Below are positions 5,255 to 62,438 of a DNA stretch of 64,000 nt, piece by piece. The notes beneath the pieces are model-generated. The model was not told where the DNA came from. It made no database searches and was given only the letters and a program-made list of their open reading frames with translations. The translations under genes and the position numbers were made by a program. Numbering within the stretch: the first letter of the stretch is position 1; every line of letters starts with the position of its first letter. Source of the stretch: Caldifarciminota bacterium (GTDB lineage Bacteria; Hydrothermota; UBA3073; JACQXS01; JAGMCI01); contig JAGMCI010000011.1 in assembly GCA_023129325.1 (NCBI GenBank), positions 1 to 64,000 of the forward strand. Reading direction: 5' to 3'.

Positions 5255-5899
5255 CTACCCACTGCTTACTGTCCGTGCCCTTGCTCCCTCCAAAAATATA
5301 GTCGTTGTTATTTTAGCGGTTTGTTTAAGAGGTTCTTTCTCTTTTCTCATAATCCATTCACCGATAGTTGAACTGATTAAACCTAAAAGGATGCGTGATA
5401 GAACTATTGGCTCAATTTTCTTAAGCACTCCTGTTCTCACTCCTTCTTCCATAATTTTGGCTATAAAATTCACTCCCTCTTGATATTTAGGTATAACTCT
5501 TTTCTTTATTTCTGGATGTCTCTTTCTTGTAAAACCACCGCGCTCTGGAGTGAATATACAAAAGAAATCCCTGTTTTTCTCAGCATATTCTAAGATTTTT
5601 TGAATTTCTTTTTTAATCTTTTCAATTGGGGAAATAGAACTTTCAACTACACTCTTAGTTATCATTGAGAGTTCATCAAGCCCTTTTTCTATCAGGCTAA
5701 GGAACAAGTCATCTTTGTTTTTAAAATAACTATATATCGTACCCTTTGAAAACTCTGCCATCCTTGCAATATCATCCATCTTTGCGGCATCAAAACCATG
5801 CTCTGCAAAAACCTTCTTCGCTGCCTCTAAAATCGCTAATTTTCTTACCTCACGCTCTCGCTCTTTTCTCTTTAACTGACCAGTCATTTTATGACCCAT
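5255..5899 (-). CDS. TetR/AcrR-family transcriptional regulator
   Basis: Probable local repressor of the efflux operon that follows. It has 214 residues. The N-terminal TetR helix-turn-helix is clear (MDDIARMAEFSKGTIYSYFKNKDDLF, residues about 41-66, quoted here in two overlapping parts), followed by a helical ligand-binding domain with no recognisable ligand signature. The start at 5899 is supported by a consensus promoter ending 7 nt upstream. It heads the operon tetR-tolC-adaptor-RND, a common arrangement for drug or solvent efflux controlled by its own repressor. Confidence 0.92.
   Translation of the reverse strand: MGHKMTGQLKRKEREREVRKLAILEAAKKVFAEHGFDAAKMDDIARMAEFSKGTIYSYFKNKDDLFLSLIEKGLDELSMITKSVVESSISPIEKIKKEIQKILEYAEKNRDFFCIFTPERGGFTRKRHPEIKKRVIPKYQEGVNFIAKIMEEGVRTGVLKKIEPIVLSRILLGLISSTIGEWIMRKEKEPLKQTAKITTTIFLEGARARTVSSG
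5883..5895. promoter_or_regulatory. Possible TetR operator GTCATTTTATGAC
   Basis: A perfect 13-bp palindrome (5-bp arms, 3-bp centre) overlaps codons 2-6 of tetR, just downstream of its promoter. The position suits autorepression. Assignment is inference. Confidence 0.35.
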
Positions 5900-5906
5900 T
5901 GGTTAA

Positions 5907-5934
5907 ATTATATTTAAAAAAAATAATTTGTCAA
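5907..5934 (-). promoter_or_regulatory. Sigma-70-type promoter of the efflux operon
   Basis: On the minus strand TTGACA (5934-5929), 16-bp spacer, TATAAT (5912-5907). Both hexamers are perfect. The start codon follows 7 nt later, so the mRNA should be leaderless or nearly so. Confidence 0.8.
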
Positions 5935-6177: not shown

Positions 6178-6957
6178 TTAAAAAATTGGTTTTGAAAGCT
6201 GCCAGAAGTGGTTAAATGCATCCTTTAAAGTAATTGCAAGATTCGGATGCTTGATTAGCATTGAAGTGTGAAGTTCCCTGCCAGATACAGGGTCCTCAAG
6301 TGCATAAAGAACTGAAAATTTGTCAAATATGGCAAGTTTCATTGGAAGGTTGTCAATAATCCTTGATTCTTCACCTGCTTTATGTAATTCCTTAATATCC
6401 TCTTTTAAAGCCCCAATATTCTCAGAGCTGCACTCATAAATTGCAAGTTTCTTTATCCCCCTCTTTAGAGCTTTGACCTCATATCTATTTTCCTCAGGTC
6501 CTAAAACATAAGGAGGCTTTACCCAAGCTAATAACTCTTTTTTACACCCACTTACAAGTTCAATAAACCTTTGCTTTAAGTAAGAAGGGTCTCTGATGAA
6601 TTCAACATACCTGAGTGGGTCTTCAGCCCCAGCTTTATACATTGGACTCAGCTTTTCTATTAAAATCTCCGTAAGTTTTCCCTTCTCTTCCTGCTCTCTC
6701 TCTTGTCTTATAAGCAAATTCTTAAATCCAGTAGCTGGAGGAACTGCTCTAAATCTCCTGACTTTCCCTTGCTCACAAATGCAAAGCCCTTTTTCAACAA
6801 GAGATTCTAAAACAGGATAACTCTTTTGCCTTGGAATGCCAGATACCACCGAGAGTTCAGAGGCAGTATAACTTTCTCTGCCAAGTAATGTAAAATAGGC
6901 TTTTGCCTCATTTAATGTAAGTCCCGTTCTTTGTAAATCTGAAATAATTTCTCTCAT
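6178..6957 (-). CDS. TrmB-like transcriptional regulator
   Basis: Winged-helix regulator of the TrmB family, common in archaea and some bacteria and often tied to sugar uptake. It has 259 residues from this start. The N-terminal HTH is LTLNEAKAYFTLLGRESYT...SGIPRQKSYPVLESLVEKG, followed by a C-terminal effector region (LLAWVKPPYVLG, MLIKHPNLAITL). An upstream in-frame TTG at 6993 lies in the -35 box, so I place the start at ATG 6957 (MREIISDL), 7 nt after a -10 box. It stands alone, so its target is unknown; it may act on itself or on distant genes. Confidence 0.82.
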   Translation of the reverse strand: MREIISDLQRTGLTLNEAKAYFTLLGRESYTASELSVVSGIPRQKSYPVLESLVEKGLCICEQGKVRRFRAVPPATGFKNLLIRQEREQEEKGKLTEILIEKLSPMYKAGAEDPLRYVEFIRDPSYLKQRFIELVSGCKKELLAWVKPPYVLGPEENRYEVKALKRGIKKLAIYECSSENIGALKEDIKELHKAGEESRIIDNLPMKLAIFDKFSVLYALEDPVSGRELHTSMLIKHPNLAITLKDAFNHFWQLSKPIF

Positions 6958-6964
6958 CTTTAAA

Positions 6965-6993
6965 ATCATATTAAAAAGCTGCAAAAAAGTCAA
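6965..6993 (-). promoter_or_regulatory. Promoter of the TrmB-like gene
   Basis: Minus strand TTGACT (6993-6988), 17-bp spacer, TATGAT (6970-6965). ATG follows after 7 nt. This decides against the upstream TTG start, which lies inside the promoter. Confidence 0.65.
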
Positions 6994-8040: not shown

Positions 8041-8250
8041 AAAATTTATCTTAAGAAGTCTGGGTTATTGAAAATAAAGGGCTTATAAAAACAAGGAGGG
8101 TTTATAATGATTAAAGTATAAATCCTGAGATTTTAAGTCATTAAGTTATTAGGTTATTTTCTTCAATATTTTTAGTGACTTATTTACATAATTACTGTTT
8201 TTTATCTTGTGGAAATCCGTGTAATCAGTGGCTACATTTATTTTTGTGGT
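8041..8250. repeat. Copy B of the ~190-bp dispersed repeat
   Basis: Intergenic stretch without a gene. About 8060-8250 is homologous to 5985-6177 by eye, and its right end carries an AATCCGTGTAATCAGTGGCTA unit of the ACAGAT family. It ends at the stop codon of the peptidase gene. Confidence 0.6.
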
Positions 8251-9393: not shown

Positions 9394-9477
9394 CCACTGA
9401 TTTCACAGATTTGCCCTGATTCCACGGATTAAAAAGTCTGTGTAATCTTTTGAAATCAGTGTAATCTGTGGCTTCAT
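9394..9477. repeat. ACAGAT-family inverted repeat
   Basis: Left arm GCCACTGATTTCACAGATTT..., right arm ...AATCAGTGTAATCTGTGGC in inverse orientation around a centre near 9432. Unit ACACAGATT/ACACTGATT recurs at 10-11 bp. It lies between the peptidase gene and the small gene at 9474-9692. Confidence 0.75.
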
Positions 9478-9692
9478 TTTGAAAAATTTACTGTCCAAAC
9501 ACTGCCATTATAGATAAGTTTATAGATTCCTTTGTCAGTTTTAACTTTAAAAATACGCTTTCTTTTGCCAGTTAATGAATCCTCTACTAATTCCTCACTA
9601 ATTACTTTTCTTATTATTTGTTCTGCACCATTTACAGTAAAGGTAGCTGGCTTTTCTTCACCTTTATAACCAGAATACCATTTAACTTGCAT
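9474..9692 (-). CDS. Small conserved protein (72 aa), function unknown
   Basis: Small soluble protein starting MQVKWYSGYKGEEKP. I recall similar short proteins with a YSGYK..E.P start and a YFKV..D.G..Y.L ending, here RIFKVKTDKGIYKLIYNG; this is memory, not a search. A GTG two codons upstream (9698) touches the -10 box, so ATG 9692, which lies 6 nt after the -10 box, is preferred. It is transcribed divergently from serS, with both promoters in a 75-bp gap. Confidence 0.65.
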   Translation of the reverse strand: MQVKWYSGYKGEEKPATFTVNGAEQIIRKVISEELVEDSLTGKRKRIFKVKTDKGIYKLIYNGSVWTVNFSK

Positions 9693-9698
9693 AATCAC

Positions 9699-9726
9699 AT
9701 TTTACACTGATTTGACTGATTGTCAA
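9699..9726 (-). promoter_or_regulatory. Promoter of the small 72-aa gene
   Basis: Minus strand TTGACA (9726-9721), 16-bp spacer, TAAAAT (9704-9699), then 6 nt to ATG 9692. Confidence 0.7.
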
Positions 9727-9733
9727 GTTTTTC

Positions 9734-9761
9734 TTGACTTTCATTTAATTTATACTATCAT
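9734..9761 (+). promoter_or_regulatory. Promoter of serS
   Basis: TTGACT (9734-9739), 16-bp spacer, TATCAT (9756-9761), 6 nt to ATG 9768. The mRNA is predicted to begin at the start codon. Confidence 0.7.
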
Positions 9762-9767
9762 TTAAAT

Positions 9768-11021
9768 ATGCTTGATATGAAATTTATTAGGGAGAACTTT
9801 GACCTTGTCAAAAGGGCAATTGAGGGCAAGGGAGAAAGCGTTGATATATCTAAATTTGAAGAACTTGATGAACGACGGAGAAAATTTATAATGGAGAGAG
9901 ATAAACTAAGATTTGAGAAGAAAAAGTTATCACCCAAAATAGCTAATTTGAAAAGGACTGATAAGGATGCAACCAAGCTTATTCAAGAATCAAAATTGCT
10001 TGACCAAAGGGAGACAGACTTACAAAATGAACTTCAGAGTATTGAATCAGAACTGCGTAGTATAATTATTTGGATTCCTAATATCCCTCATTCCTCTGTC
10101 CCTCAGGGCAAAGAAGGTGTTATAATAAGAAAATGGGGCAAGAAAAGGAGATTTGCTTTCAGACCTTTTACTTGTTATGACTTATGTAATGCACTTGGAA
10201 TCCAGGATTTTAAGAGGGGCAGTAAATTAGCTGGCTCAAATTTCCCCTGTTATAAAGGATTGGGAGCAAGACTTGAGCGTGCTCTTATTAATTTTATGCT
10301 TGACTTACATATTAAACAAGGTTATACAGAAATATTCCCGCCCTTCCTTGTCAACCGACGCTCAATGTTTGGGACTGCCCAGCTTCCAAAATTAGAAGAT
10401 GATATGTATATTATAGAAGAAGATGACCTCTTTCTTAATCCAACTGCTGAAGTGCCACTTGTAAATCTGCATCAAGATGAGATTTTGGACGAAGATGAGT
10501 TATCAATCAAATATGTTGGTTATACTGCTTGTTTCAGGCGTGAAGCTGGCTCCTATGGAAAGGAGACAAAAGGATTAAGAAGGGTGCACCAATTTAATAA
10601 AGTTGAACTCATAAAATTTACTAAACCAGAAAACTCTTATAAAGAACTTGAACTAATGCTTGAGGATGCAGAAAGGGTATTAAAATTACTAAATCTCCAA
10701 TATCGTGTCAATCTTCTTTCTACAACCGAAATGAGCTTTGCATCTGCCAAGACTTATGATATAGAAGTATGGGCTCCTGTGACCAGGGAATGGCTTGAAG
10801 TCTCAAGTGTAAGTAATTGTGAAGACTTCCAAGCCAGACGTGCAGAGATTAAATTCAGGAGAAAAGGAGAAAGTGAATTTGCCCACATTTTAAATGGTTC
10901 AGGGCTTGCAACCCCAAGAACTTTTATTGCCATTATAGAAACTTATCAGCAAAGAAATGGCACAATCCAAATCCCAGACGCCCTCCTCCCATATATGGGC
11001 GGAGTGAAAGTAATTAGTTAA
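9768..11021 (+). CDS. serS: Seryl-tRNA synthetase
   Basis: Charges tRNA-Ser. It has 417 residues, the usual length. The N-terminal coiled-coil arm spans about residues 30-100 (FEKKKLSPKIANLKR, LLDQRETDLQNELQSIESEL). Class II core motifs follow: motif 2 TACFRREAGSYGKETKG.LRRVHQF and motif 3 ending NGTIQIPDALLPYMGG. Start MLDMKFIREN is the family's typical start. A leaderless-type promoter precedes it. The next gene is 146 bp away and has its own ribosome site. Confidence 0.96.
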   Translation: MLDMKFIRENFDLVKRAIEGKGESVDISKFEELDERRRKFIMERDKLRFEKKKLSPKIANLKRTDKDATKLIQESKLLDQRETDLQNELQSIESELRSIIIWIPNIPHSSVPQGKEGVIIRKWGKKRRFAFRPFTCYDLCNALGIQDFKRGSKLAGSNFPCYKGLGARLERALINFMLDLHIKQGYTEIFPPFLVNRRSMFGTAQLPKLEDDMYIIEEDDLFLNPTAEVPLVNLHQDEILDEDELSIKYVGYTACFRREAGSYGKETKGLRRVHQFNKVELIKFTKPENSYKELELMLEDAERVLKLLNLQYRVNLLSTTEMSFASAKTYDIEVWAPVTREWLEVSSVSNCEDFQARRAEIKFRRKGESEFAHILNGSGLATPRTFIAIIETYQQRNGTIQIPDALLPYMGGVKVIS

Positions 11022-12112: not shown

Positions 12113-12300
12113 CACTTAGGACCATTCCTGAAATAATAAAAGCCACAAAATTATACAAGATTTCCCGATAAATCGGGATGAGCCTCGGGCTCAAACGCCA
12201 GATGTTACCCTGAGCGAAGTGAAGGGTCTATGAGATTCTTCGGCTTCGCCTCAGAATGACATTTCTTGTGAAAATCTGTGTAATCTGTGGTTGCTTTTTT
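12113..12300. repeat. Intergenic repeat cluster (palindromes plus half ACAGAT element)
   Basis: No gene. It contains TTTCCCGATAAATCGGGA (about 12162-12179), a GAGCCTCGGGCTC palindrome, TACCCTGAGCGAAGTGAAGGGT (about 12204-12226), TTCTTCGGCTTCGCCTCAGAA, then AAATCTGTGTAATCTGTGG at about 12269-12288. Confidence 0.7.
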
Positions 12301-12301
12301 C

Positions 12302-12329
12302 TTGACTTGTTTGATTTTTGTGGTATTTT
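12302..12329 (+). promoter_or_regulatory. Promoter of leuC
   Basis: TTGACT (12302-12307), 16-bp spacer, TATTTT (12324-12329), 6 nt to ATG 12336. The GAGGG before the ATG is too close to act as a normal Shine-Dalgarno. Confidence 0.6.
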
Positions 12330-12335
12330 GAGGGT

Positions 12336-13628
12336 ATGACAATTTCTGAAAAGATATTAGCCCGAGCATCGGGAAAGAAAAAAGTGAGTCCAGGCGAAAT
12401 TGTTGATGCTAATGTTGATTTATGTATGTCCCATGATAATGCGGCTCTTGTGTGTAAAAAGTTTAAAGAAATTGGTGTAAAGAAAGTATGGAATAGAGAT
12501 AAGATTGTTCTCCTTTTTGACCATCGTATTCCAGCTGAATCAGTTAAAACAGCTATCGGACATAAAGAAGTGCGTGAGTTTGTTGAACAACAAAAGATAA
12601 AGCATTTTTACGATATGAGGGCTGGTATATGTCATCAAATACTTCCTGAAAAAGGTTATGTGAAGCCCGGTGAACTTATTGTTGGCACTGATTCGCATAC
12701 CACAACTTATGGAGCCTTTGGTGCATTTTCTACAGGTATTGGAGCAACTGAGATGGCAGGAGTATGGGCTACTGGCAAGTTATGGCTTAAAGTGCCACCA
12801 ACAATTAAGATTAAAGTTAAAGGTAATTTTAAGGTGTGGGTGAGTGCTAAAGATTTAATCCTTTATATCATTGGTAAGCTTAGTGCAAGTGGTGCAAATT
12901 ATAAGGCAATTGAGTTTTATGGAAACACTATTAGCAATTTAAGTATAGCCAGTCGGATGGTACTTTCAAACTTATCAATGGAAGCAGGAGCAAAGGCGGC
13001 AATTGTGCCTCCAGATGAAAAAACTATGGATTATGTAAATCAAAGAATGCAAAAGCAATTCGTTACACTTCAACCTGTATATGCAGATAAGGACGCAGTT
13101 TATGAGAATGAGTTATCTTTTAATGTTTCCAATCTTGAGCCTCAGCTTGCTTGTCCTCATCAAGTTGATAATGTGCATCCTGTTTCAAAATTTAAGGGGC
13201 TCAAAATTCATCAAGCTTTTTTGGGTTCTTGCACAAATGGCAGACTTGAAGACCTTGAAATAGCGGCTAAAATCATTAAAGGTAAAAAGATACCGATGAG
13301 TGTTCGTTTGCTTATAATTCCAGCAAGCTGGGACATATGGCTTCAAGCAATGAAACTTGGATTACTGGAAATATTTGTAAAAGCTGGAGGGTTGGTCTTA
13401 AATCCAGGCTGTGGTCCTTGTCTTGGGGCACATCAGGGTTTATTGGCACCTGGCGAAAGATGTATTGCTACAACAAATCGCAATTTTCAAGGTCGGATGG
13501 GTTCACCGGAGGCAGAAGTTTATTTAGCATCTCCAGCAACAGTGGCCGCATCAGCAGTCAACGGAAAAATCGTTGACCCACGGAGATACACGGATGAGAA
13601 CACAGATATACACGGATATGAATGCTGA
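12336..13628 (+). CDS. leuC: 3-isopropylmalate dehydratase large subunit (or homoaconitase type)
   Basis: Large subunit of the isopropylmalate isomerase/homoaconitase family, leucine pathway. It has 430 residues from ATG 12336; an in-frame TTG at 12318 overlaps the promoter region and is not used. [4Fe-4S] ligands are C299 (GSCTNGR) and C359/C362 (PGCGPCLG). The substrate signature GTDSHTTTYGAFGAF is intact. The family's end is KIVDPR; the last ~14 residues (RYTDENTDIHGYEC) are encoded by an inserted ACACGGAT array, so the native stop has been lost. leuD follows after the inserted GxxExxY gene. LeuC versus homoaconitase cannot be settled without leuB-type neighbours. Confidence 0.92.
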   Translation: MTISEKILARASGKKKVSPGEIVDANVDLCMSHDNAALVCKKFKEIGVKKVWNRDKIVLLFDHRIPAESVKTAIGHKEVREFVEQQKIKHFYDMRAGICHQILPEKGYVKPGELIVGTDSHTTTYGAFGAFSTGIGATEMAGVWATGKLWLKVPPTIKIKVKGNFKVWVSAKDLILYIIGKLSASGANYKAIEFYGNTISNLSIASRMVLSNLSMEAGAKAAIVPPDEKTMDYVNQRMQKQFVTLQPVYADKDAVYENELSFNVSNLEPQLACPHQVDNVHPVSKFKGLKIHQAFLGSCTNGRLEDLEIAAKIIKGKKIPMSVRLLIIPASWDIWLQAMKLGLLEIFVKAGGLVLNPGCGPCLGAHQGLLAPGERCIATTNRNFQGRMGSPEAEVYLASPATVAASAVNGKIVDPRRYTDENTDIHGYEC

Positions 13629-14601: not shown

Positions 14602-14629
14602 TTGACAACACTAAATAGTTAGGTATAAT
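14602..14629 (+). promoter_or_regulatory. Promoter of the DUF4416 gene and downstream operon
   Basis: TTGACA (14602-14607), 16-bp spacer, TATAAT (14624-14629), both perfect. GTG 14637 follows after 7 nt. Confidence 0.8.
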
Positions 14630-14636
14630 TTAAAAT

Positions 14637-15206
14637 GTGGAGTTCGCAGCAAAACTTGTATGTGGTATTATTATAGCACAGGATTGTGAGCTTAAAGAAG
14701 TTATAAAAAAGTTAGAGGAGAAATTTGGAGATATAGATTTAGAGAGTAAAATTATACCATTTGATTTTACTGATTATTACAATAAAGAAATGGGCAAGGG
14801 GCTTAATAGAAAATGGGTAAGCTTTGAGAAACCTATCTTTAAAGAAGATTTAGGATTTGTAAAGCATAAAACCATTAAAATTGAGAATGAGTTTTTAAGA
14901 ACAGGTGGGGCAAGGAGAGCCTGCCTCGCCCCCGCCTGCCAAAGCGAAGCGACGGGCAGGGAGTCAAGGCGGGTAAATCTTGACCCAGGGTATATAGATT
15001 TATCCAGGCTTGTGCTTGCGAGCACAAAAGACTATTCGCATCGTATTTATCTTGGAGATAAAGTATTTGCTGAAGTAACACTTATTTATAAAGACAATCA
15101 TTTTCATCCATTAGATTGGACTTATCCTGATTATCGTAAGAATATACAATTCTTTGAGGATGTAAGAGAGAAATTTAAAATTCAAAATGAAAAGTTCAAA
15201 ACTTAA
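14637..15206 (+). CDS. DUF4416 family protein
   Basis: Protein of unknown function, 189 residues, start GTG (VEFAAKLVCGIIIA). Family features: PFDFTDYYNKEMG, SFEKPIF, VNLDPGYIDLSRLVLAS, YSHRIYLGDKVFAEVTL and WTYPDYR. A GC-rich palindrome adds about 22 residues (RRACLAPACQSEATGRESR region) just before VNLDPGYI; homologues as I recall them run straight through. The C-terminus KFKIQNEKFKT is also repeat-like (AATTCAAAA units). An S55 protease gene follows after 6 bp. Confidence 0.82.
   Translation: MEFAAKLVCGIIIAQDCELKEVIKKLEEKFGDIDLESKIIPFDFTDYYNKEMGKGLNRKWVSFEKPIFKEDLGFVKHKTIKIENEFLRTGGARRACLAPACQSEATGRESRRVNLDPGYIDLSRLVLASTKDYSHRIYLGDKVFAEVTLIYKDNHFHPLDWTYPDYRKNIQFFEDVREKFKIQNEKFKT
14923..14975. 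repeat. GC-rich palindromic insert inside the DUF4416 gene
   Basis: CCTGCCTCGCCCCCGCCTGCC and its partial inverse GGGCAGGGAGTCAAGGCGGG. It is in frame, GC-rich in an AT-rich gene, and splits a conserved block. Confidence 0.75.
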
Positions 15207-15287
15207 CCACAGATGAACACAAATTTTAATAGATTACACAGATTTTTAGAAGTTATTCTAATCAGTGCAATCTGTGGCGTAAGTTTA
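15205..15287. repeat. ACAGAT-family inverted repeat that encodes a start codon and signal peptide
   Basis: Left arm AACCACAGATGAACACAAATTTT, centre near 15245, right arm ...AATCAGTGCAATCTGTGG. The ATG of the S55 protease gene is part of the first unit. Confidence 0.75.
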
Positions 15288-38107: not shown

Positions 38108-38135
38108 AATTATACATTAAATTCAGAAGATGTCA
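38108..38135 (-). promoter_or_regulatory. Promoter of the two-component operon
   Basis: Minus strand TTGACA (38135-38130), 16-bp spacer, TATAAT (38113-38108); ATG after 12 nt. The CTTGTTTAA...TTATAC motif overlaps the -10 box and leader, which would suit autoregulation. Confidence 0.7.
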
Positions 38136-38189
38136 ATAAAAAATTAAAAAGTCCCAAACGCAGATAAATGTTTGGAACTTTAAAGAAAG

Positions 38190-38342: not shown

Positions 38343-38370
38343 TTGACTTTTGAGGTTTTAGTGGTAAATT
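38343..38370 (+). promoter_or_regulatory. Promoter of uppP
   Basis: TTGACT (38343-38348), 16-bp spacer, TAAATT (38365-38370), 9 nt to ATG. Confidence 0.6.
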
Positions 38371-38379
38371 TTTATCTCT

Positions 38380-39117
38380 ATGGGAATATTCCATTCCTTT
38401 ATTTTAGGTATTGTTCAAGGTTTAACAGAATTCTTCCCAATATCTTCATCTGCTCATCTGGCATTATTAGAGGGAATCTTTGGAATTAAGAGTAAACTTA
38501 CAATTACTGTATTTTTACACTTTGGCTCACTAATTGCTCTTATTGTAGTTATGTGGAAAGATATTAAAGAAATTATAATCAATGACAGACGGCTCATTTT
38601 GTTCCTCATCATAGGTTCTATACCAGCTGGAGTTTTTGGTTTATTTTTAAAGGATAAAGTAGCACTTATATTTGAGAGTCCATTTTTAATTGGCATTGCT
38701 CTTGTGGTGACAGGTATAATCTTATGGCTTACGCGAAATATAAAAGAAAAAAGGAAAAAGATTAGGCTTCTGGATGCCATTTTGATTGGCATAGCTCAAG
38801 CCATTGCCATTGTTCCTGGAATATCAAGGTCTGGGATTACAATTTCAGCTGGTATTTATTTAGGGGCTGAGCGGGTTCAGGCAGCTAAATTTTCTTTCCT
38901 TTTAGCTATAATTTCAATTCTTGGAGCAAATATAATTGAGACAAAAAATATAGTCTTGAGGGAGCTACCTATTCTTCCTATATTTATAGGAATTGCTGTT
39001 TCTTTTTTAGTGAGCTATTTTGCAATTAAGGTCCTTTTGAGGATTGTGAAAAGAAAAGGGTTCTCTCTCTTTTCTCTTTATTGTTGGGCATTGGGATTCT
39101 TCGTCCTTTTTTCTTGA
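38380..39117 (+). CDS. uppP: Undecaprenyl-diphosphate phosphatase
   Basis: Recycles the lipid carrier for peptidoglycan and other envelope polymers (BacA/UppP family). 245 residues, somewhat shorter than the usual 260-275. Signature regions present: GIVQGLTEFFPISSSAH with its catalytic Glu and Ser residues, and VPGISRSGITISAG with catalytic Arg. Seven to eight hydrophobic segments. Leaderless-type promoter. The next promoter overlaps its last codons. Confidence 0.94.
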   Translation: MGIFHSFILGIVQGLTEFFPISSSAHLALLEGIFGIKSKLTITVFLHFGSLIALIVVMWKDIKEIIINDRRLILFLIIGSIPAGVFGLFLKDKVALIFESPFLIGIALVVTGIILWLTRNIKEKRKKIRLLDAILIGIAQAIAIVPGISRSGITISAGIYLGAERVQAAKFSFLLAIISILGANIIETKNIVLRELPILPIFIGIAVSFLVSYFAIKVLLRIVKRKGFSLFSLYCWALGFFVLFS

Positions 39118-43999: not shown

Positions 44000-44275
44000 T
44001 TACACTATTTTGGGGACGACAAAGTAGTCTCTTTCTTTAATAGGAGCATTAAAGAGGGCAGATTCTTTAGAAAGAGTTTGAGAGGGTTTATCTTCCCTTA
44101 AGCGAAGAGAAGTTAACTCTAGTTCCTTTAGTTTCTCTAATTTTAACTCCCTTAATTTGTTTATGTAATCTATAATTTTTGAAAGCTCTTTAGTAAGTTT
44201 TTTAAGTTCTTCTTGACTGAGCTTAAGTTTGGAGAGTTCTGCTATATGAGAGACTGTTTTTAAATCAATACCCAT
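44000..44275 (-). CDS. gatC: Aspartyl/glutamyl-tRNA amidotransferase subunit C
   Basis: Small stabilising subunit of the GatCAB tRNA-dependent amidotransferase. 91 residues, typical length. Pattern VSHIAELSKLKLSQEELKKL, KIIDYINKL, then RLREDKPSQTLSKESALFNAP is that of GatC. It stands alone here; gatA and gatB must lie elsewhere. An asnS gene is present in the window, so GatCAB would mainly serve Gln-tRNA. The promoter ends 6 nt before the ATG. A CCCGCACAT..ATGT.CGGG hairpin lies 3' at about 43972-43994. Confidence 0.92.
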   Translation of the reverse strand: MGIDLKTVSHIAELSKLKLSQEELKKLTKELSKIIDYINKLRELKLEKLKELELTSLRLREDKPSQTLSKESALFNAPIKERDYFVVPKIV

Positions 44276-44281
44276 TTTTAA

Positions 44282-44310
44282 AATTATAACTCAAATTACC
44301 TAATTCGTCA
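44282..44310 (-). promoter_or_regulatory. Promoter of gatC
   Basis: Minus strand TTGACG (44310-44305), 17-bp spacer, TATAAT (44287-44282), 6 nt to ATG 44275. Confidence 0.75.
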
Positions 44311-44324
44311 AGAAAATAATTTAA

Positions 44325-44450
44325 ATCACGAAAACACGAAACCCGTATAAATATTATTAGCACACAGATATACACAGGTTTAATAGATTCCCACAGATTT
44401 AATTTATCTTCTGTGTAAATCTGTCCTATCTGTGAGAATCTGTGTGCAAA
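44325..44450. repeat. Complete ACAGAT-family inverted element
   Basis: Left arm GCACACAGATATACACAGG..., CCCACAGATT; right arm AATCTGTCCTATCTGTGAGAATCTGTGTGC in inverse orientation. Terminal 10 bp GCACACAGAT/ATCTGTGTGC match exactly. It overlaps the 3' end of the MFS gene and encodes its last residues LHTDSHR. Confidence 0.8.
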
Positions 44451-45622
44451 GAGTAAATTTGCAGTAAAATTATTGCTATAAAAGCTATTGACCCCCCAAA
44501 AATAAATGTTATAGCAGGATTAATGCCCCATAAAGTTCCTGCTATTAAGCTTGCTGGTAAGGCAACTAAGCCGGTTAATGTATGGAAAGCTCCAAGTCCT
44601 GTAGCTCGCAAATCAGTTGGCACCATATCTGAAACAAAAGCCCTTTGATTCCCATCTATACAGGCGTAAACTAAACCATATAATGCAAATAAAATTATAA
44701 ATGAAATTAAGGAATGAGAAAATGCAAAGCCCAAACAAGTTAAAACAAATAAAGAATATCCCAATAAAATAACATTCTTTTTCCCTATCCTATCTGAAAG
44801 AATGCCAGAGGGAATTGAAAATGAGGCATAAAAAATGTTAAATAATATATATAAAAGAATTGGTATTCCAATTGCAAATTTACCTGTAAAAAATTCTTGT
44901 GCCTTTAAAATGAAGAACATATAGCTAAAATTGCCAAGCCCAAAGATAGTAGCTATTAAAATAAATAACCTGCTTTTTTTAGGTAAGCTTTTTAAACTTA
45001 TTTTAAATAAAAGATTCTTAGGCTCTTTTTTCTTTTCTTTTACAAAATGAATAGGGATTAAAGAAACAAAAGCTAAGATTGCTGCAATTAATATTATTTG
45101 ATTAAATCCAAATTTCATAAACCAAAACAAAATAAATGCAAGTGCTGACCCAATAATTGCCCCACTTGTGTCAAATGCGCGATGGATACCAAATCCTTTA
45201 CCTTTCCTTTCTGGCACGGAATCAGCTATGATGGCATCTCTGGGGGCAGTTCTTAAGCCCTTACCTATTCTTTCTGATGAGCTAAAAATAAGAACCTGGG
45301 GCCAAACTTTTGAAAAAGAAAGAAATAATTTAAACAAAGCAGAAATAAAATAACCAGAAAAAATAAACGGCTTTCTTTTTCCAATCTTATCAGACCAAAA
45401 GCCAGCAAATACTTTTAATATACTGGCTATGCTATCCCTTAATCCTCCAACAAGTCCTACAATTAAGCCCGTTCCTCCCAAAGCAGTGATAAACATAGGC
45501 AAGATAGGCATTATCATCTCACTACTCATATCATTTAGAAAACTTATAATACCAAACAAAATTATATTAAAATATAAAGCTTTGGATAGGGTTCTATGAG
45601 GAATCATTTTTTTCTTATCCAT
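44426..45622 (-). CDS. MFS transporter
   Basis: 398 residues with about 12 hydrophobic segments and the MFS loop motif (GFWSDKIGKRKPF after TM2; GILSDRIGKKNVI after TM8). The pattern SERIGKGLRTAPRDAIIADS, quoted in part, is typical of a group of MFS proteins in metal- or drug-related families. Substrate unknown. The ATG lies 6 nt after a -10 box. The C-terminus LHTDSHR comes from an ACAGAT repeat, so the original stop was replaced. Confidence 0.88.
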   Translation of the reverse strand: MDKKKMIPHRTLSKALYFNIILFGIISFLNDMSSEMIMPILPMFITALGGTGLIVGLVGGLRDSIASILKVFAGFWSDKIGKRKPFIFSGYFISALFKLFLSFSKVWPQVLIFSSSERIGKGLRTAPRDAIIADSVPERKGKGFGIHRAFDTSGAIIGSALAFILFWFMKFGFNQIILIAAILAFVSLIPIHFVKEKKKEPKNLLFKISLKSLPKKSRLFILIATIFGLGNFSYMFFILKAQEFFTGKFAIGIPILLYILFNIFYASFSIPSGILSDRIGKKNVILLGYSLFVLTCLGFAFSHSLISFIILFALYGLVYACIDGNQRAFVSDMVPTDLRATGLGAFHTLTGLVALPASLIAGTLWGINPAITFIFGGSIAFIAIILLQIYSLHTDSHR

Positions 45623-45628
45623 TAAGGT

Positions 45629-45657
45629 ATATTATTAAACAAACGCCCAAAAGTCAA
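45629..45657 (-). promoter_or_regulatory. Promoter of the MFS gene
   Basis: Minus strand TTGACT (45657-45652), 17-bp spacer, TAATAT (45634-45629), 6 nt to ATG 45622. Confidence 0.65.
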
Positions 45658-45675: not shown

Positions 45676-45704
45676 TTGACAAAGTCTCTTATGGTAGTTA
45701 ATAT
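45676..45704 (+). promoter_or_regulatory. Promoter of plsY
   Basis: TTGACA (45676-45681), 17-bp spacer, TAATAT (45699-45704), 8 nt to ATG 45713. Confidence 0.6.
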
Positions 45705-45712
45705 ATTATTTA

Positions 45713-46333
45713 ATGGTGTTCCTTTTGATAATAATTGGCTATCTTATAGGGTCTATTCCATGCGGATATATAGCAGGCAAGATAAAAGGAGTAGATGTGA
45801 TGAAAGAGGGATTCAAGAAAATAGGGGCTTCTAATATTTATAGAACAATGGGTCCTCTTCCTGCCTTACTTGTATTTTTTGGTGATTTTATGAAAGGTAT
45901 TATTCCAATACTTATTGGTAAAGCTATGGGATTTCCAGAGTCTCTTGCGTCTATTGCCGGGATTGCGGCTATTTGTGGTCATAATTGGCCTGTATGGCTT
46001 GGATTTAAAAGCGAGGGAAGAGGGACTGCTACTTCCTTGGGGGCATTATATTACCTTATGCCACGCGAAGCCCTCATTTTGTTTGTTGTAATTGTTGTTG
46101 GACTTACCTTGATTGTGAAAAGCACACCAGTTGCATTCCTTATTTTCTTCTTTCTTATGCCATTTGGAACAAGATTATTTCATGAGCCTTTATGGATGGC
46201 TTGGTTTGCAATCGGTATATTTGGGCTTATATTATTTACAAGAATTATCAGTGGCATGAAAGAAATTAAAGCAAGTGAATCAAAAAAGAAAACACTTTTA
46301 AATCTGATTTTATTTGATAAAATAAGCAGATAA
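45713..46333 (+). CDS. plsY: PlsY-like glycerol-3-phosphate acyltransferase
   Basis: Membrane acyltransferase that makes lysophosphatidic acid from acyl-phosphate. 206 residues, five to seven TM segments. Motif 1 GYLIGSIPCGYI, motif 2 GASNIYRTMG in place of the common GSGNPGATN, motif 3 GHNWPVWLGFKSEGRGTATSLG against the common GFKGGKGVAT. So it is a divergent branch; substrate could differ. It converges on the M23 peptidase gene and their 3' ends overlap by 24 bp. Confidence 0.85.
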   Translation: MVFLLIIIGYLIGSIPCGYIAGKIKGVDVMKEGFKKIGASNIYRTMGPLPALLVFFGDFMKGIIPILIGKAMGFPESLASIAGIAAICGHNWPVWLGFKSEGRGTATSLGALYYLMPREALILFVVIVVGLTLIVKSTPVAFLIFFFLMPFGTRLFHEPLWMAWFAIGIFGLILFTRIISGMKEIKASESKKKTLLNLILFDKISR

Positions 46334-47488
46334 AGGAAGAATTTTTTTAAGGGTCTTTATGCCGCTCATTAAAGTAAAGAGTTCCTTCTTATATTCTTTA
46401 TATCTTTGGAGTTCCTTTCCTTTTAAAGGTTTAATGGAAGGCGGATTTAATTTAAGTGGATTTATCCACTTGCCATGTTTCTTTAATCTGAAATCAAGGT
46501 GAGGTCCTGTTGAAAGTCCTGTAGAACCAACATAACCTATTACCTTTCCCTGCTTTACATATTTTCCCTTCTTGATTCCTTTTCTAAATCTTGATAAATG
46601 TCCATAATATGATTTAAATCCTCTACTATGCCGAATAATCACCTGTCTACCGAAACCTTTTCTCCATCCAACAAATGTCACTTTTCCATCGCCTATGGTC
46701 CTGATAGGTGTTCCTGTTGGAGCCGCATAATCTACTCCCAAATGAGGTCTCCGAATGCGTAATATGGGATGAAACCTTGAATAAGAAAATCTGGACGATA
46801 CCCTTACATAGCTAAGCGGAGCTTTTAAAAACAGACGCTGTAAAGATTTTCCATCTAAACTGTAATATCCATGTCTTCCTTTGGGGTAATAAATGCCTGT
46901 GTATTTTTTATTTTTTTGCCACTCCTTTGGCAGGTAGGTAGCAAATAATATCTTTCCATAGCCTATAAACCTATTCTCTATATACCTTGCAGTTGTGAAG
47001 ATCTCAAATTTATCTCCATTTCTTGTTTCAACATTGAAGTCAATATCCCATGGGAACACTGTTTCGGCAAATTCATATACCAGTTTCGGAGTTCCGCCAA
47101 TTGAGAGTAAAGCGTCCCATAATGAACCTTTTTCAATAGTTCCTTTTAAATAAATAAGAACTTTTCTTTCTTTTAATTTAGATACATTATTTAAACTATC
47201 AACAACCCAGGTAGCATGTGGCTGCTCATATTTAAGCTCAATAAATTTGCCCTCCCTCCCCGACGGCTGGCTAGCGGGTCTGGTAGTAATATATAATTTA
47301 TCACCGGGTTTGCATTTTCTTAAATTTATTTTCTTGCCAAGAGCCGAGACTACTTGAGCTGTGCTTTTCTTTGAGATTCCATTTGAGAGTAAAATTTCAG
47401 CTATATTCTCGCCTGATTTTAAAGTATGGGTCCGAGTAACTAATAAAAAGGAGACAAAAATCCAGAACATCTGGTTCAGTATACACAT
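46310..47488 (-). CDS. M23 family peptidase (MepM/NlpD-like)
   Basis: Envelope peptidoglycan endopeptidase or an inactive activator, 392 residues. N-terminal hydrophobic signal (LNQMFWIFVSFLLV), an OapA/LysM-like region (LKSGENIAEILLSNGISKKS), an intermediate Csd3-like domain, and the LytM domain (about 250-345): HLGVDYAAPTGTPI supplies His and Asp, GHLSRF another His. The final motif is PHLDFRL where LytM has HLHY, so one usual zinc His is Asp. A GC palindrome adds RPASQPSGREGK near residue 70. The start could be a later Met. Confidence 0.84.
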   Translation of the reverse strand: MCILNQMFWIFVSFLLVTRTHTLKSGENIAEILLSNGISKKSTAQVVSALGKKINLRKCKPGDKLYITTRPASQPSGREGKFIELKYEQPHATWVVDSLNNVSKLKERKVLIYLKGTIEKGSLWDALLSIGGTPKLVYEFAETVFPWDIDFNVETRNGDKFEIFTTARYIENRFIGYGKILFATYLPKEWQKNKKYTGIYYPKGRHGYYSLDGKSLQRLFLKAPLSYVRVSSRFSYSRFHPILRIRRPHLGVDYAAPTGTPIRTIGDGKVTFVGWRKGFGRQVIIRHSRGFKSYYGHLSRFRKGIKKGKYVKQGKVIGYVGSTGLSTGPHLDFRLKKHGKWINPLKLNPPSIKPLKGKELQRYKEYKKELFTLMSGIKTLKKILPLSAYFIK

Positions 47489-47529
47489 AATTTTTCATTT
47501 TGCAACCTTTTTCTTAATGAAATTATAAA

Positions 47530-47674: not shown

Positions 47675-47702
47675 TTGACAAAGAGAGTAGATTTTGTATA
47701 AT
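47675..47702 (+). promoter_or_regulatory. Promoter of asnS
   Basis: TTGACA (47675-47680), 16-bp spacer, TATAAT (47697-47702), 6 nt to ATG 47709. Perfect hexamers. Confidence 0.82.
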
Positions 47703-47708
47703 GTGATA

Positions 47709-49001
47709 ATGGCATATATTAAAGAGATTGCAAAGTACGAGGGCCAGGAAATTACAATTAAAGGCTGGCTCTATAATAAGAGGTCAAGTGGTAAAATATA
47801 TTTTCTTCTTATCCGTGATGGAACTGGAATTATACAAGGATTAGTATTAGAAGATAATGTAAGTAAAAAAACATTTGAACTCTGTGACAGACTTACTCAA
47901 GAGTCCTCAATTATAGTAAAGGGTAAAGTTAGAAAAGATTCCCGTGCCCCTGGTGGTTATGAACTTGAATTAAATGATATAAAAGTTGTCCAACTTACAG
48001 AGTCTTATCCTATATCAAAAAAAACTCACGGGATTGACTTTCTTCTTTCTAATCGTCATCTCTGGCTCAGGTCAAGGCGTCAATATGCTATTTTGAAGGT
48101 AAGGGCTGAGGTCATAAGAGCGATAAATGATTTTTTTGATTCTCGTGGTTTCTTGAGATTTGATGCCCCTATTCTGACACCATCATCTTGTGAAGGGACA
48201 ACGACGCTATTTGAAGTTCCTTATTTTGACAACAAGGTTTATCTTTCCCAGTCAGGACAACTTTATGCAGAAGCAGGCTGTATGGCTTTTGGCAAGGTGT
48301 ATACCTTTGGACCTACTTTCCGTGCCGAACTTTCAAAGACAAAGCGTCATATTACTGAATTCTGGCAAATAGAGCCCGAGGTTGCTTATGCAAATCTTGA
48401 TGATATAATGAAATTAGCTGAAGAATTTGTAAGTTACATAGTTAAAAGAGTGCTTGATAAAAGGGAAGAAGAACTTTCTATTCTTGAGCGTGATACAAAA
48501 CTCTTAGAAAAAATAAAACTCCCATTCTCGCGTATTACTTACAAGGAGGCTCTTAATTTGCTTGACAAGCAAACTGAAGCGCCTAAACTCAAATGGGGGG
48601 AAGACCTTGGTGCTCCTCAGGAGACTTATTTAGCGAATCAGTTTGAAGTACCATTTTTTATTCATCACTATCCGGCAAGCTGTAAAGCCTTTTATATGAA
48701 ACGCGACCCTGAAAATTCTGAACTTTCTCTGTGTATTGATATGCTCGCACCTGAAGGGTATGGTGAGATAATGACTGGTTCAGAAAGGGAAGATAATTTG
48801 AAAATATTAGAACAAAGACTAAAAGAATTTAATTTACCAAAGAAACCACAGGAATGGTATCTTGACCTCCGTAGATATGGTTCAGTCCCTCATTCAGGAT
48901 TTGGGCTTGGACTTGAACGCACAATTGCATGGTTATGTGGACTTAAGCATATTCGCGAAGCTATCCCATTCCCAAGAACAATTGATAGAGCATATCCATA
49001 A
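47709..49001 (+). CDS. asnS: Asparaginyl-tRNA synthetase
   Basis: Class IIb synthetase, 430 residues. N-terminal OB fold ([25 protein letters not shown], quoted across strands), then motif 2 ([22 protein letters not shown]) and motif 3 ([16 protein letters not shown]). SQSGQLYAE region points to Asn rather than Asp. Met 47709 (MAYIKEI) is chosen over an upstream in-frame ATG at 47694-type extension because the -10 box ends 6 nt before it. The gap to the next gene has an AATCCG...CGGATT hairpin. Confidence 0.95.
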
Positions 49002-55907: not shown

Positions 55908-56972
<1,065 letters not shown>

Positions 56973-56975
56973 TTA

Positions 56976-57003
56976 ATTTTACATTAAAAGATTAAAAAAT
57001 CAA
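56976..57003 (-). promoter_or_regulatory. Promoter of tgt
   Basis: Minus strand TTGATT (57003-56998), 16-bp spacer, TAAAAT (56981-56976), 6 nt to ATG. Confidence 0.6.
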
Positions 57004-57088: not shown

Positions 57089-57117
57089 TTGACAAGAGGC
57101 TTTTTTTAAGATATAAT
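57089..57117 (+). promoter_or_regulatory. Promoter of the fabH-oxidoreductase operon
   Basis: TTGACA (57089-57094), 17-bp spacer, TATAAT (57112-57117), 12 nt to ATG 57130. A second TTGACA lies at 57074-57079. Confidence 0.78.
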
Positions 57118-60883: not shown

Positions 60884-60950
60884 AAATAACTAAAGGGAAA
60901 AGATGATTTTGGTTTTTGATATTTAATCTTTGATATTTGATTTTATTTAT

Positions 60951-61023
60951 GGGGGTGTAGCTCAGTTGGGAGAGCGTCTGGCTGGCAGCCAGAAGGTCAG
61001 GGGTTCGACCCCCCTCACCTCCA
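60951..61023 (+). tRNA. tRNA-Ala (anticodon GGC)
   Basis: 73-nt cloverleaf. Acceptor GGGGGTG pairs with CACCTCC; D arm GCTC-AGTTGGGA-GAGC; anticodon arm TCTGG-CTGGCAG-CCAGA with anticodon GGC; variable AGGTC; T arm AGGGG-TTCGACC-CCCCT; discriminator A. CCA is not encoded. An open frame runs through it in frame with the next gene but is not translated. Confidence 0.97.
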
Positions 61024-61043
61024 TAATTAACAGGAGGAGAGAA

Positions 61044-62438
61044 ATGAAAGGAATGATTATGGGAAGCAAAAGATTATTAAGCTTTTTGTTGCTTGGATGC
61101 TTGGTTTTTGGCTTGTTTGTAAGTATAGGTTGTAAGAGTAAAGGTGGATATCAGGATATTGCTCTTGTTAAGCAGGCGACAAGAGAAATCAGGAGAATAA
61201 GAAATGCACTTGAAGAATATAAATTGGATTATAGTTATTATCCATCCGAAGGAAGTGATTTAAAGGTTAGACTTGCTTCTTATTTATCCAAGTTCTCCTA
61301 TCATGAGGACAAGATAGTGCGTGAGTATTCAGGAACTGTTCTCTCTGCGCAAAACACTCTTGACCAAATAATTAACATACTTTCTGGATGCGGGAGGATA
61401 AAAAATGAGCAAATTGAAGACAGATTTGCTAAGGTTCAGGAGAATCTTGAGCTTTACAAAGAAGAGCTTGAAGGAATTTCACATAAAATTCCATCAATAG
61501 TTGAAGATGTTAAAAAGATACAATCAGTTATTAATGACTTGAATCCTGAGAAATCAAAATCTTTAAAACAAGATTCTCTTATTAGTCTTGGAGATAGGAT
61601 TGTAACTACTGTAGATTCACTGATTAAGGAGGTAACTGGCGAAGAGAAAACTCACTTACAAAATATAGGGAGTACTTTTGGTTGGTATAAGTTAAAGCTT
61701 CTTGGCAAGGAGCCCAAAAAGCCACCTGAGCTTTATTCTCCGGAGGGGGAGATTACCACTTTGAAAGGAGTAAGCAAAGATACTATATCTCTGTCCGAGG
61801 AATGGCAAATGGGAATACTTGAGCTTGAAGGGATGATAGAAAATTATCGGCAAATTGAGTCTTCAATAAATTATTGTGATTTCCTTATAGGAACTCAAAA
61901 AGATATTAACCGTGCCTTAAAACTTATTTCAAGTTTTCAAGAAAAGAGAGAGAAAGCTAAAAAGGCAGCTGTGATTGTGGAAGCACAAGCGAAGTTGTAT
62001 CGTATGGCTGATGTTTTAAGAGATTATAGAAGAAAGAATTTAACATTCCCTGAACCAAATGTAAATACAGACTCCCTTTTTCATCCTTATTTTATAGAGA
62101 CAACGATGAGTGGTGAGCAAATAGACCGCTGGGAAGCTACTTTATCTTGGTTTTCGTCCAGTCCAGTGTATAAGACTAAAGACCCAACTACAAGTTTTAT
62201 GCTTGAGGCAAAAGTCAATAATAAAGAGCGCACTTCTCTCGCCTGTTGGGTTCAGGTTGAAAATCAGTGGGGCAAGATATTAAGTTCTTTTTCAAGTCCA
62301 TTGATTTATACCACTCCGGATTCTCTTCGGACTTATTTTATAAAAGCAAGAGCAAAAGACAGTGGCAAAACTTGGATAACAGACCGTCCACCAATTGCCA
62401 AGACCCGTCTGCCGTCTGTCGGGCAGAAAGGAGGCTAA
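61044..62438 (+). CDS. Coiled-coil lipoprotein of unknown function
   Basis: 464 residues from ATG 61044, which has an AGGAGGAG ribosome site; the frame is open further upstream through the tRNA, which is not a real start. Signal peptide LLSFLLLGCLVFGLFVSIGC with lipid-attachment Cys in SIGC. Mostly helical, with long charged coiled-coil stretches (ALEEYKLDYSYYPSEGSD, FAKVQENLELYKEELEGI). The C-terminal part is beta-rich (SFMLEAKVNNKERTSLACW). Ends in TRLPSVGQKGG, encoded by a palindrome (about 62402-62430). No family recognised. Directly followed by a TPR lipoprotein. Confidence 0.75.
   Translation: MKGMIMGSKRLLSFLLLGCLVFGLFVSIGCKSKGGYQDIALVKQATREIRRIRNALEEYKLDYSYYPSEGSDLKVRLASYLSKFSYHEDKIVREYSGTVLSAQNTLDQIINILSGCGRIKNEQIEDRFAKVQENLELYKEELEGISHKIPSIVEDVKKIQSVINDLNPEKSKSLKQDSLISLGDRIVTTVDSLIKEVTGEEKTHLQNIGSTFGWYKLKLLGKEPKKPPELYSPEGEITTLKGVSKDTISLSEEWQMGILELEGMIENYRQIESSINYCDFLIGTQKDINRALKLISSFQEKREKAKKAAVIVEAQAKLYRMADVLRDYRRKNLTFPEPNVNTDSLFHPYFIETTMSGEQIDRWEATLSWFSSSPVYKTKDPTTSFMLEAKVNNKERTSLACWVQVENQWGKILSSFSSPLIYTTPDSLRTYFIKARAKDSGKTWITDRPPIAKTRLPSVGQKGG

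Follow-up and report, generated by a model that had tools for sequence, protein, structure and literature searches.

Translation of messages that lack a 5' leader is an established mode of initiation in the Actinobacteria, in Deinococcus-Thermus and, by prediction, in about one-fifth of bacterial species. Published work describes several systems close to the one reported here. In Deinococcus-Thermus, about 30% of genes were found to have a -10 motif some 6–7 bp ahead of the start codon (PMC12340547, citing de Groot 2014), and two further features of that account, the presence of Shine-Dalgarno (SD) genes in the same genome and the correction of start sites, are shared with our genome. The motif given there is a TANNNT box, whereas the WOR-3 genome studied here (37% GC) keeps near-perfect TTGACA and TATAAT boxes 16–17 nt apart. 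Zheng et al. 2011 (PMC3160421) identified leaderless genes in 207 of 953 bacterial genomes. As in our data, genes with a TA-like signal some 12 bp ahead of the start were read there as leaderless, these genes coexisted with SD genes, and the mode changed between relatives. The group list in that paper does not name WOR-3, and one genome in it is unclassified. GeneMarkS-2 predicted leaderless transcription in 21.6% of 4,769 representative bacterial species, with up to 40% of transcripts and, again as here, mixed with SD-led transcription (PMC9581028). In mycobacteria, leaderless genes beside SD genes were described from RNA data (PMC3898074, PMC4633059), whereas our reading is made from DNA alone.

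The host phylum is called WOR-3 or Stahlbacteria (Candidatus Stahliibacteriota at NCBI), and a cultured strain of it, sy37, is described in PMC12285271. A search under the first two phylum names, which covered few subscription papers, found no report of leaderless genes, and the words leaderless and promoter are absent from a 2025 survey of the phylum. WOR-3 therefore seems to be new as a phylum with leaderless genes.

Promoters and start codons in the window

The stretch of DNA analysed (the window) is 64,000 nucleotides long, and its genes were named from NCBIfam and Pfam profile matches. The promoter distance k was defined as the number of bases from the end of the -10 hexamer to the start codon, and both the promoter sequences and their distances were read exactly in the sequence. 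The serS promoter, TTGACT-16-TATCAT (9734..9761, + strand), lies at k=6 to ATG 9768 of serS (9768..11021, + strand). On the opposite strand, TTGACA-16-TAAAAT (9699..9726, - strand) lies at k=6 to ATG 9692 of a 72-aa gene (9474..9692, - strand), which had no family match in NCBIfam or Pfam and for which ATG 9692 was preferred over GTG 9698 as the start. The 75-nt gap between the two genes (9693-9767) holds both divergent promoters, and because their -35 boxes stand back to back, a terminator-like inverted repeat appears at 9722-9738.

The same arrangement was seen at other genes of the window. At k=6 were the promoters of a leuC/hacA-like gene of the 3-isopropylmalate dehydratase large subunit family (12336..13628, + strand; TTGACT-16-TATTTT, 12302..12329, ATG 12336), of asnS (47709-49001, + strand; TTGACA-16-TATAAT, a 12/12 match, 47675..47702, ATG 47709), of tgt (55908-56969, - strand; TTGATT-16-TAAAAT, 56976..57003, ATG 56969) and of an MFS gene (44426-45622, - strand; TTGACT-17-TAATAT, 45629..45657, ATG 45622). 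For the MFS gene, k is 6 with TAATAT and 8 in the other register, with AATAAT. Its divergent partner, plsY (45713-46333, + strand), has TTGACA-17-TAATAT (45676..45704) at k=8 to ATG 45713. At k=7 were the promoters of a tetR-family gene (5255-5899, - strand; TTGACA-16-TATAAT, 12/12, 5907..5934, ATG 5899), a TrmB-like gene (6178-6957, - strand; TTGACT-17-TATGAT, 6965..6993, ATG 6957), a DUF4416 gene (14637-15206, + strand; TTGACA-16-TATAAT, 12/12, 14602..14629, GTG 14637) and gatC (44000-44275, - strand; TTGACG-17-TATAAT, 44283..44311, ATG 44275), together with a weaker promoter, TTGCAA-16-TATACT (47478..47505, - strand), before ATG 47470 of an M23-peptidase gene. The promoter of uppP (38380-39117, + strand; TTGACT-16-TAAATT, 38343..38370) lies at k=9 to ATG 38380. 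Two 12/12 promoters fitted loosely: TTGACA-17-TATAAT (57089..57117, + strand) at k=12 to ATG 57130 of fabH, and TTGACA-16-TATAAT (38109..38136, - strand) at k=13 to ATG 38095 of a histidine kinase gene. Messages of these two genes would carry a very short leader rather than none.

Profile matches confirm several of the start codons. At serS (TIGR00414), at the leuC-like gene (NF001614) and at uppP, position 1 of the profile falls on residue 1 of the protein that starts at the promoter-adjacent ATG, and for gatC, plsY, asnS and tgt the profile begins within a few residues of the promoter-adjacent start. The initial annotation had listed twelve promoter distances, eleven of which (6–9 nt) stand, while gatC, given as 6, has k=7; it had also given ATG starts, which is right for most of the listed genes but not for the DUF4416 gene with its GTG. 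Its statement that the promoter rule corrects several start sites is borne out by the profile at the leuC-like gene, and is plausible at the TrmB-like gene, at asnS and at the 72-aa gene.

Two other features of the window were recorded. A short dispersed repeat with a consensus near AATCTGTGTAATCTGTGG is present in seven copies with at most three mismatches (8214-8231, 9394-9411, 9435-9452, 9454-9471, 12273-12290, 15227-15244 and 15260-15277), against 0.03 expected by shuffling; by position the copies are mostly intergenic or at gene edges, and one of them is just upstream of the leuC-like promoter. A tRNA-Ala (GGC) gene at 60950-61024 lies inside a long ORF with a TTG start (60930-62438), which makes ATG 61044, with an AGGAGG site ahead of it, the more likely start of this gene.

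Promoter distances across the genome

The genome comprises 2.02 Mb in 57 contigs and is 89% complete. In a 402-kb sample, 25 sites matched the consensus at 12/12 positions, compared with one when the sequence was reversed, and 15 ATGs opening ORFs of at least 60 codons stood at k=4-8 after such sites. Weak 9/12 matches were close to background in the same 402 kb (2731 versus 2279 in the reversed sequence) and were discarded as evidence in genome scans. With the exact pattern, the whole genome gave 42 sites at k=5-8 and 9 at k=15-18, and the reversed pattern gave none.

Start codons were also chosen from a hexamer coding score and start-codon frequency only, which excludes circular picking of starts. 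With these starts the peak in the distance from the -10 box stayed: 26 of the 61 best promoters (at least 10/12, within 90 nt upstream of 167 promoter-proximal genes) were at k=4-9. The same test gave 0 of 6 in Geobacillus, 1 of 14 in Caloranaerobacter and 0 of 1 in a Bacillus. An unsupervised mixture fit on 798 kb, begun with a weak consensus and with the spacing left flat over k 2-15, sharpened to TTGACA (0.98/0.98/0.94/0.88/0.81/0.71) and TATAAT with a spacer of 16–17 nt and a k mode of 6-8. The fitted distances were 6 (22%), 7 (28%), 8 (14%), 9 (10%) and 10 (10%), so the rule of exactly 6 nt in the initial annotation was too strict. Its broader proposal of widespread leaderless or near-leaderless messages is the best-fitting reading, and the peak at k=6-8 was found with or without promoter-guided starts.

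Among 336 first genes, the fit assigned 98 to a leaderless-type promoter, 101 to an SD site and 137 to neither. With the model trained on this genome, a threshold was then calibrated on 2885 decoy ATGs within genes, of which 15 passed. With coding-only starts in the 798 kb, a promoter 4–10 nt upstream was found for 71 of the 336 promoter-proximal genes, compared with 9 of 316 operon-internal genes (Fisher p about 7e-14) and 6 of 338 out-of-frame upstream ATGs (Fisher p about 5e-17). When the nearest in-frame start was taken, 23 of the 40 perfect promoters in the 798 kb stood at k=4-10 before a called gene; the remainder were at k=11-14 (2), at 15-250 (10), before tRNAs (2), within a gene (1) or elsewhere (2). 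The spacing rule is not a product of start choice. Roughly one-fifth to three-tenths of the promoter-proximal genes in this genome would be of the leaderless type. Avoidance of leaderless starts by exported proteins was considered but found no support: 22 of the 98 first genes of the leaderless type encode hydrophobic N-termini, and so do 28 of the 101 with an SD site (Fisher p 0.42).

With the housekeeping sigma factor, bacterial transcription usually begins about 7–8 nt past the -10 box, and a k mode of 6-7 places the purine of the start codon 7–8 nt after this box. A pyrimidine at -1 and a purine at +1 are expected of a transcription start, as a soft expectation and not a defining rule. The base before the start codon was not enriched in pyrimidines at k=6-8 (27 of 74, versus 64 of 201 in the SD class). 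No pyrimidine signature at -1 was seen, so leaders of a few bases may occur.

Shine-Dalgarno initiation in the same genome

The 3' end of the 16S rRNA carries an intact anti-SD sequence, and the mixture fit placed 201 of the 652 genes of the 798-kb sample in the SD class. Loss of SD initiation, looked for in the anti-SD end and in the SD sites, was not found in this genome, which has both. Both modes coexist, because the 16S rRNA keeps its anti-SD end and about one-third of the genes have SD sites. Genes inside operons had been described in the initial annotation as having SD sites or overlaps, which is correct only in part; 100 of 316 were SD-led, but 12 were assigned to a leaderless-type promoter and 204 to neither. 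Coupling to the upstream gene is likely for these 204.

The AGGAGG site ends mostly 4–5 nt before the start here (798 kb) and in relatives (samples of 71–100 kb). It is farther away in the Firmicutes samples, where Geobacillus has 7–9 nt between site and start, and Caloranaerobacter and Bacillus mostly have 7 nt. Absence of ribosomal protein S1 was considered as a cause favouring leaderless messages and dropped, since the genome encodes a full-length S1-like protein, which covers positions 6-514 of the 516 in the profile with 547.8 bits, under a curated cut-off of 577.

The phylum and other bacteria

Mixture fits on the small comparison samples (43–93 genes each) were unreliable, and in Geobacillus 8 of 50 first genes were assigned with blurred boxes. 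All genomes were therefore scored with the decoy threshold by the model of this genome, to whose training the other genomes had not contributed. In six other genomes of the phylum, 44 of 176 promoter-proximal genes passed (G136 9/44, G143 0/34, G072 13/26, G101 10/25, G054 5/28 and G112 7/19), compared with 3 of 132 in three Firmicutes (Geobacillus 1/50, Caloranaerobacter 2/47 and Bacillus 0/35). The arrangement thus recurs in five of the six, with G143 as the exception.

Exact consensus matches with 16–18 nt spacers were also counted in whole genomes. In the 147 genomes of the phylum, 3015 matches fell at k=5-8, compared with 1113 at k=15-18; 115 of these genomes had more at k=5-8, 14 had fewer and 18 were tied, 8 of them with neither. 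In 44 genomes from outside the phylum, obtained by starting from 47 of the 80 serS loci (46 genomes) and leaving out two phylum members recognised by exact contig match, there were 57 at k=5-8 and 39 at k=15-18, with a maximum of 7 at k=5-8 in any one genome. A low count is no evidence of absence, because the exact consensus misses genomes with other promoter habits. The predicted leaderless habit is common in the WOR-3 (Stahlbacteria) phylum, not universal.

Conserved start codons were compared directly at three genes, and one locus of 30 was dropped for each of serS, asnS and tgt as a partial or late match. At the serS start, 9 of 29 phylum loci, this genome included, had a promoter at k=5-9, and others had an SD site. 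The homologous codon in other bacteria is mostly preceded by SD-like sites, and a promoter at k=4-10 was found at 5 of 77 other loci (Fisher p 0.002 versus 9 of 29). The 77 loci were L005-L007 and L009-L082; L003 and L008, exact copies of phylum loci, were omitted, as was L004, whose phylum is unclear. L022 (Caldipriscus) was counted among them and had no promoter at k=4-10; Caldipriscus is named as a WOR-3 lineage in PMC12285271. For asnS and tgt, 8 of 29 and 4 of 29 phylum loci, respectively, this genome included, had a promoter at a plausible start, some of them weak (9/12). Start codons thus appear to have moved between the leaderless promoter and the SD arrangement. Outside the phylum, the promoter-like boxes at the serS genes of L021 (Caldimicrobium; TTGACA-17-TATGAT, k=6) and L006 (Verrucomicrobiae; TTGCCC-17-TATCAT, k=7) hint at leaderless serS.

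Interpretation

Messages without a leader, or with one of 1–4 nt, are very probably what strong promoters in much of WOR-3 commonly produce. Here we infer the position of transcription start and leader-free initiation from the DNA. In the mechanism that we propose, a housekeeping-sigma promoter would adjoin the start codon of many promoter-proximal genes, and the transcript made by RNA polymerase would open with the A (or G) of that codon or 1–4 bases ahead of it. The ribosome would then initiate on the 5'-terminal AUG without an SD site, as is known from other bacteria, and genes with leaders, together with about one-third of operon-internal genes, would use SD sites that pair with the intact 16S tail. 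Where k is at least 8, a putative leader of 1–4 nt cannot be told from none. Several results speak against the leaderless reading: the base before the start codon shows no pyrimidine enrichment, G143 gives 0 of 34, 14 of the 147 phylum genomes have fewer matches at k=5-8 than at k=15-18, and most orthologues are without the arrangement, which serS, asnS and tgt have at 9, 8 and 4 of 29 loci.

The closest competing explanation accepts the promoters as real and has transcription begin 2–8 nt upstream of the start codon, so that these messages have very short leaders. The tail of distances at k=9-14, the loose fits of fabH (k=12) and the histidine kinase gene (k=13), and the lack of pyrimidine preference at -1 speak for it, but the mode of k sets the start-codon purine at the usual distance of transcription start, and no obvious selection would favour leaders that have no room for an SD site. 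We consider this explanation rather unlikely. Translation could also start further downstream, behind an ordinary leader, the promoter-adjacent ATG being false. Some genes do have nearby in-frame starts, such as the second ATG of serS 9 nt downstream of ATG 9768, but the profiles that begin on residue 1 contradict this for serS, the leuC-like gene and uppP, and the serS codon is the same start that is mostly preceded by SD sites in other bacteria. A downstream start is accordingly very improbable. A last explanation takes the boxes for AT-rich sequences that match by chance, or for operator sites, and the spacing for a result of choosing starts that fit. It might be suggested by the 37% GC of the genome and by 9/12 matches barely above the reversed sequence; the excess of 12/12 sites (25 to 1) already contradicts it, and the peak survives independently chosen starts and is almost lacking at decoys and internal genes as well as in the low-GC Firmicutes. 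The chance of this is close to nil.

Leaderless or nearly leaderless messages from strong promoters are thus the reading that we keep, and we lean, with only slightly better than even confidence, towards a wider form of it. In much of WOR-3, the strongest housekeeping promoters would be leaderless by default, and in 20–50% of promoter-proximal genes the start codon would be fixed by where the promoter lies and not by an SD site. The ribosomes would be fully competent for SD initiation, and at orthologous starts a leaderless promoter and an SD leader would have replaced each other repeatedly.

By this reading, a deep and nearly uncultured phylum would join the bacteria with heavy use of leaderless messages. 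Two papers on WOR-3 used Prodigal, and gene callers oriented towards SD sites may misplace WOR-3 starts. The position of the promoter would give a simple rule for start codons in WOR-3.
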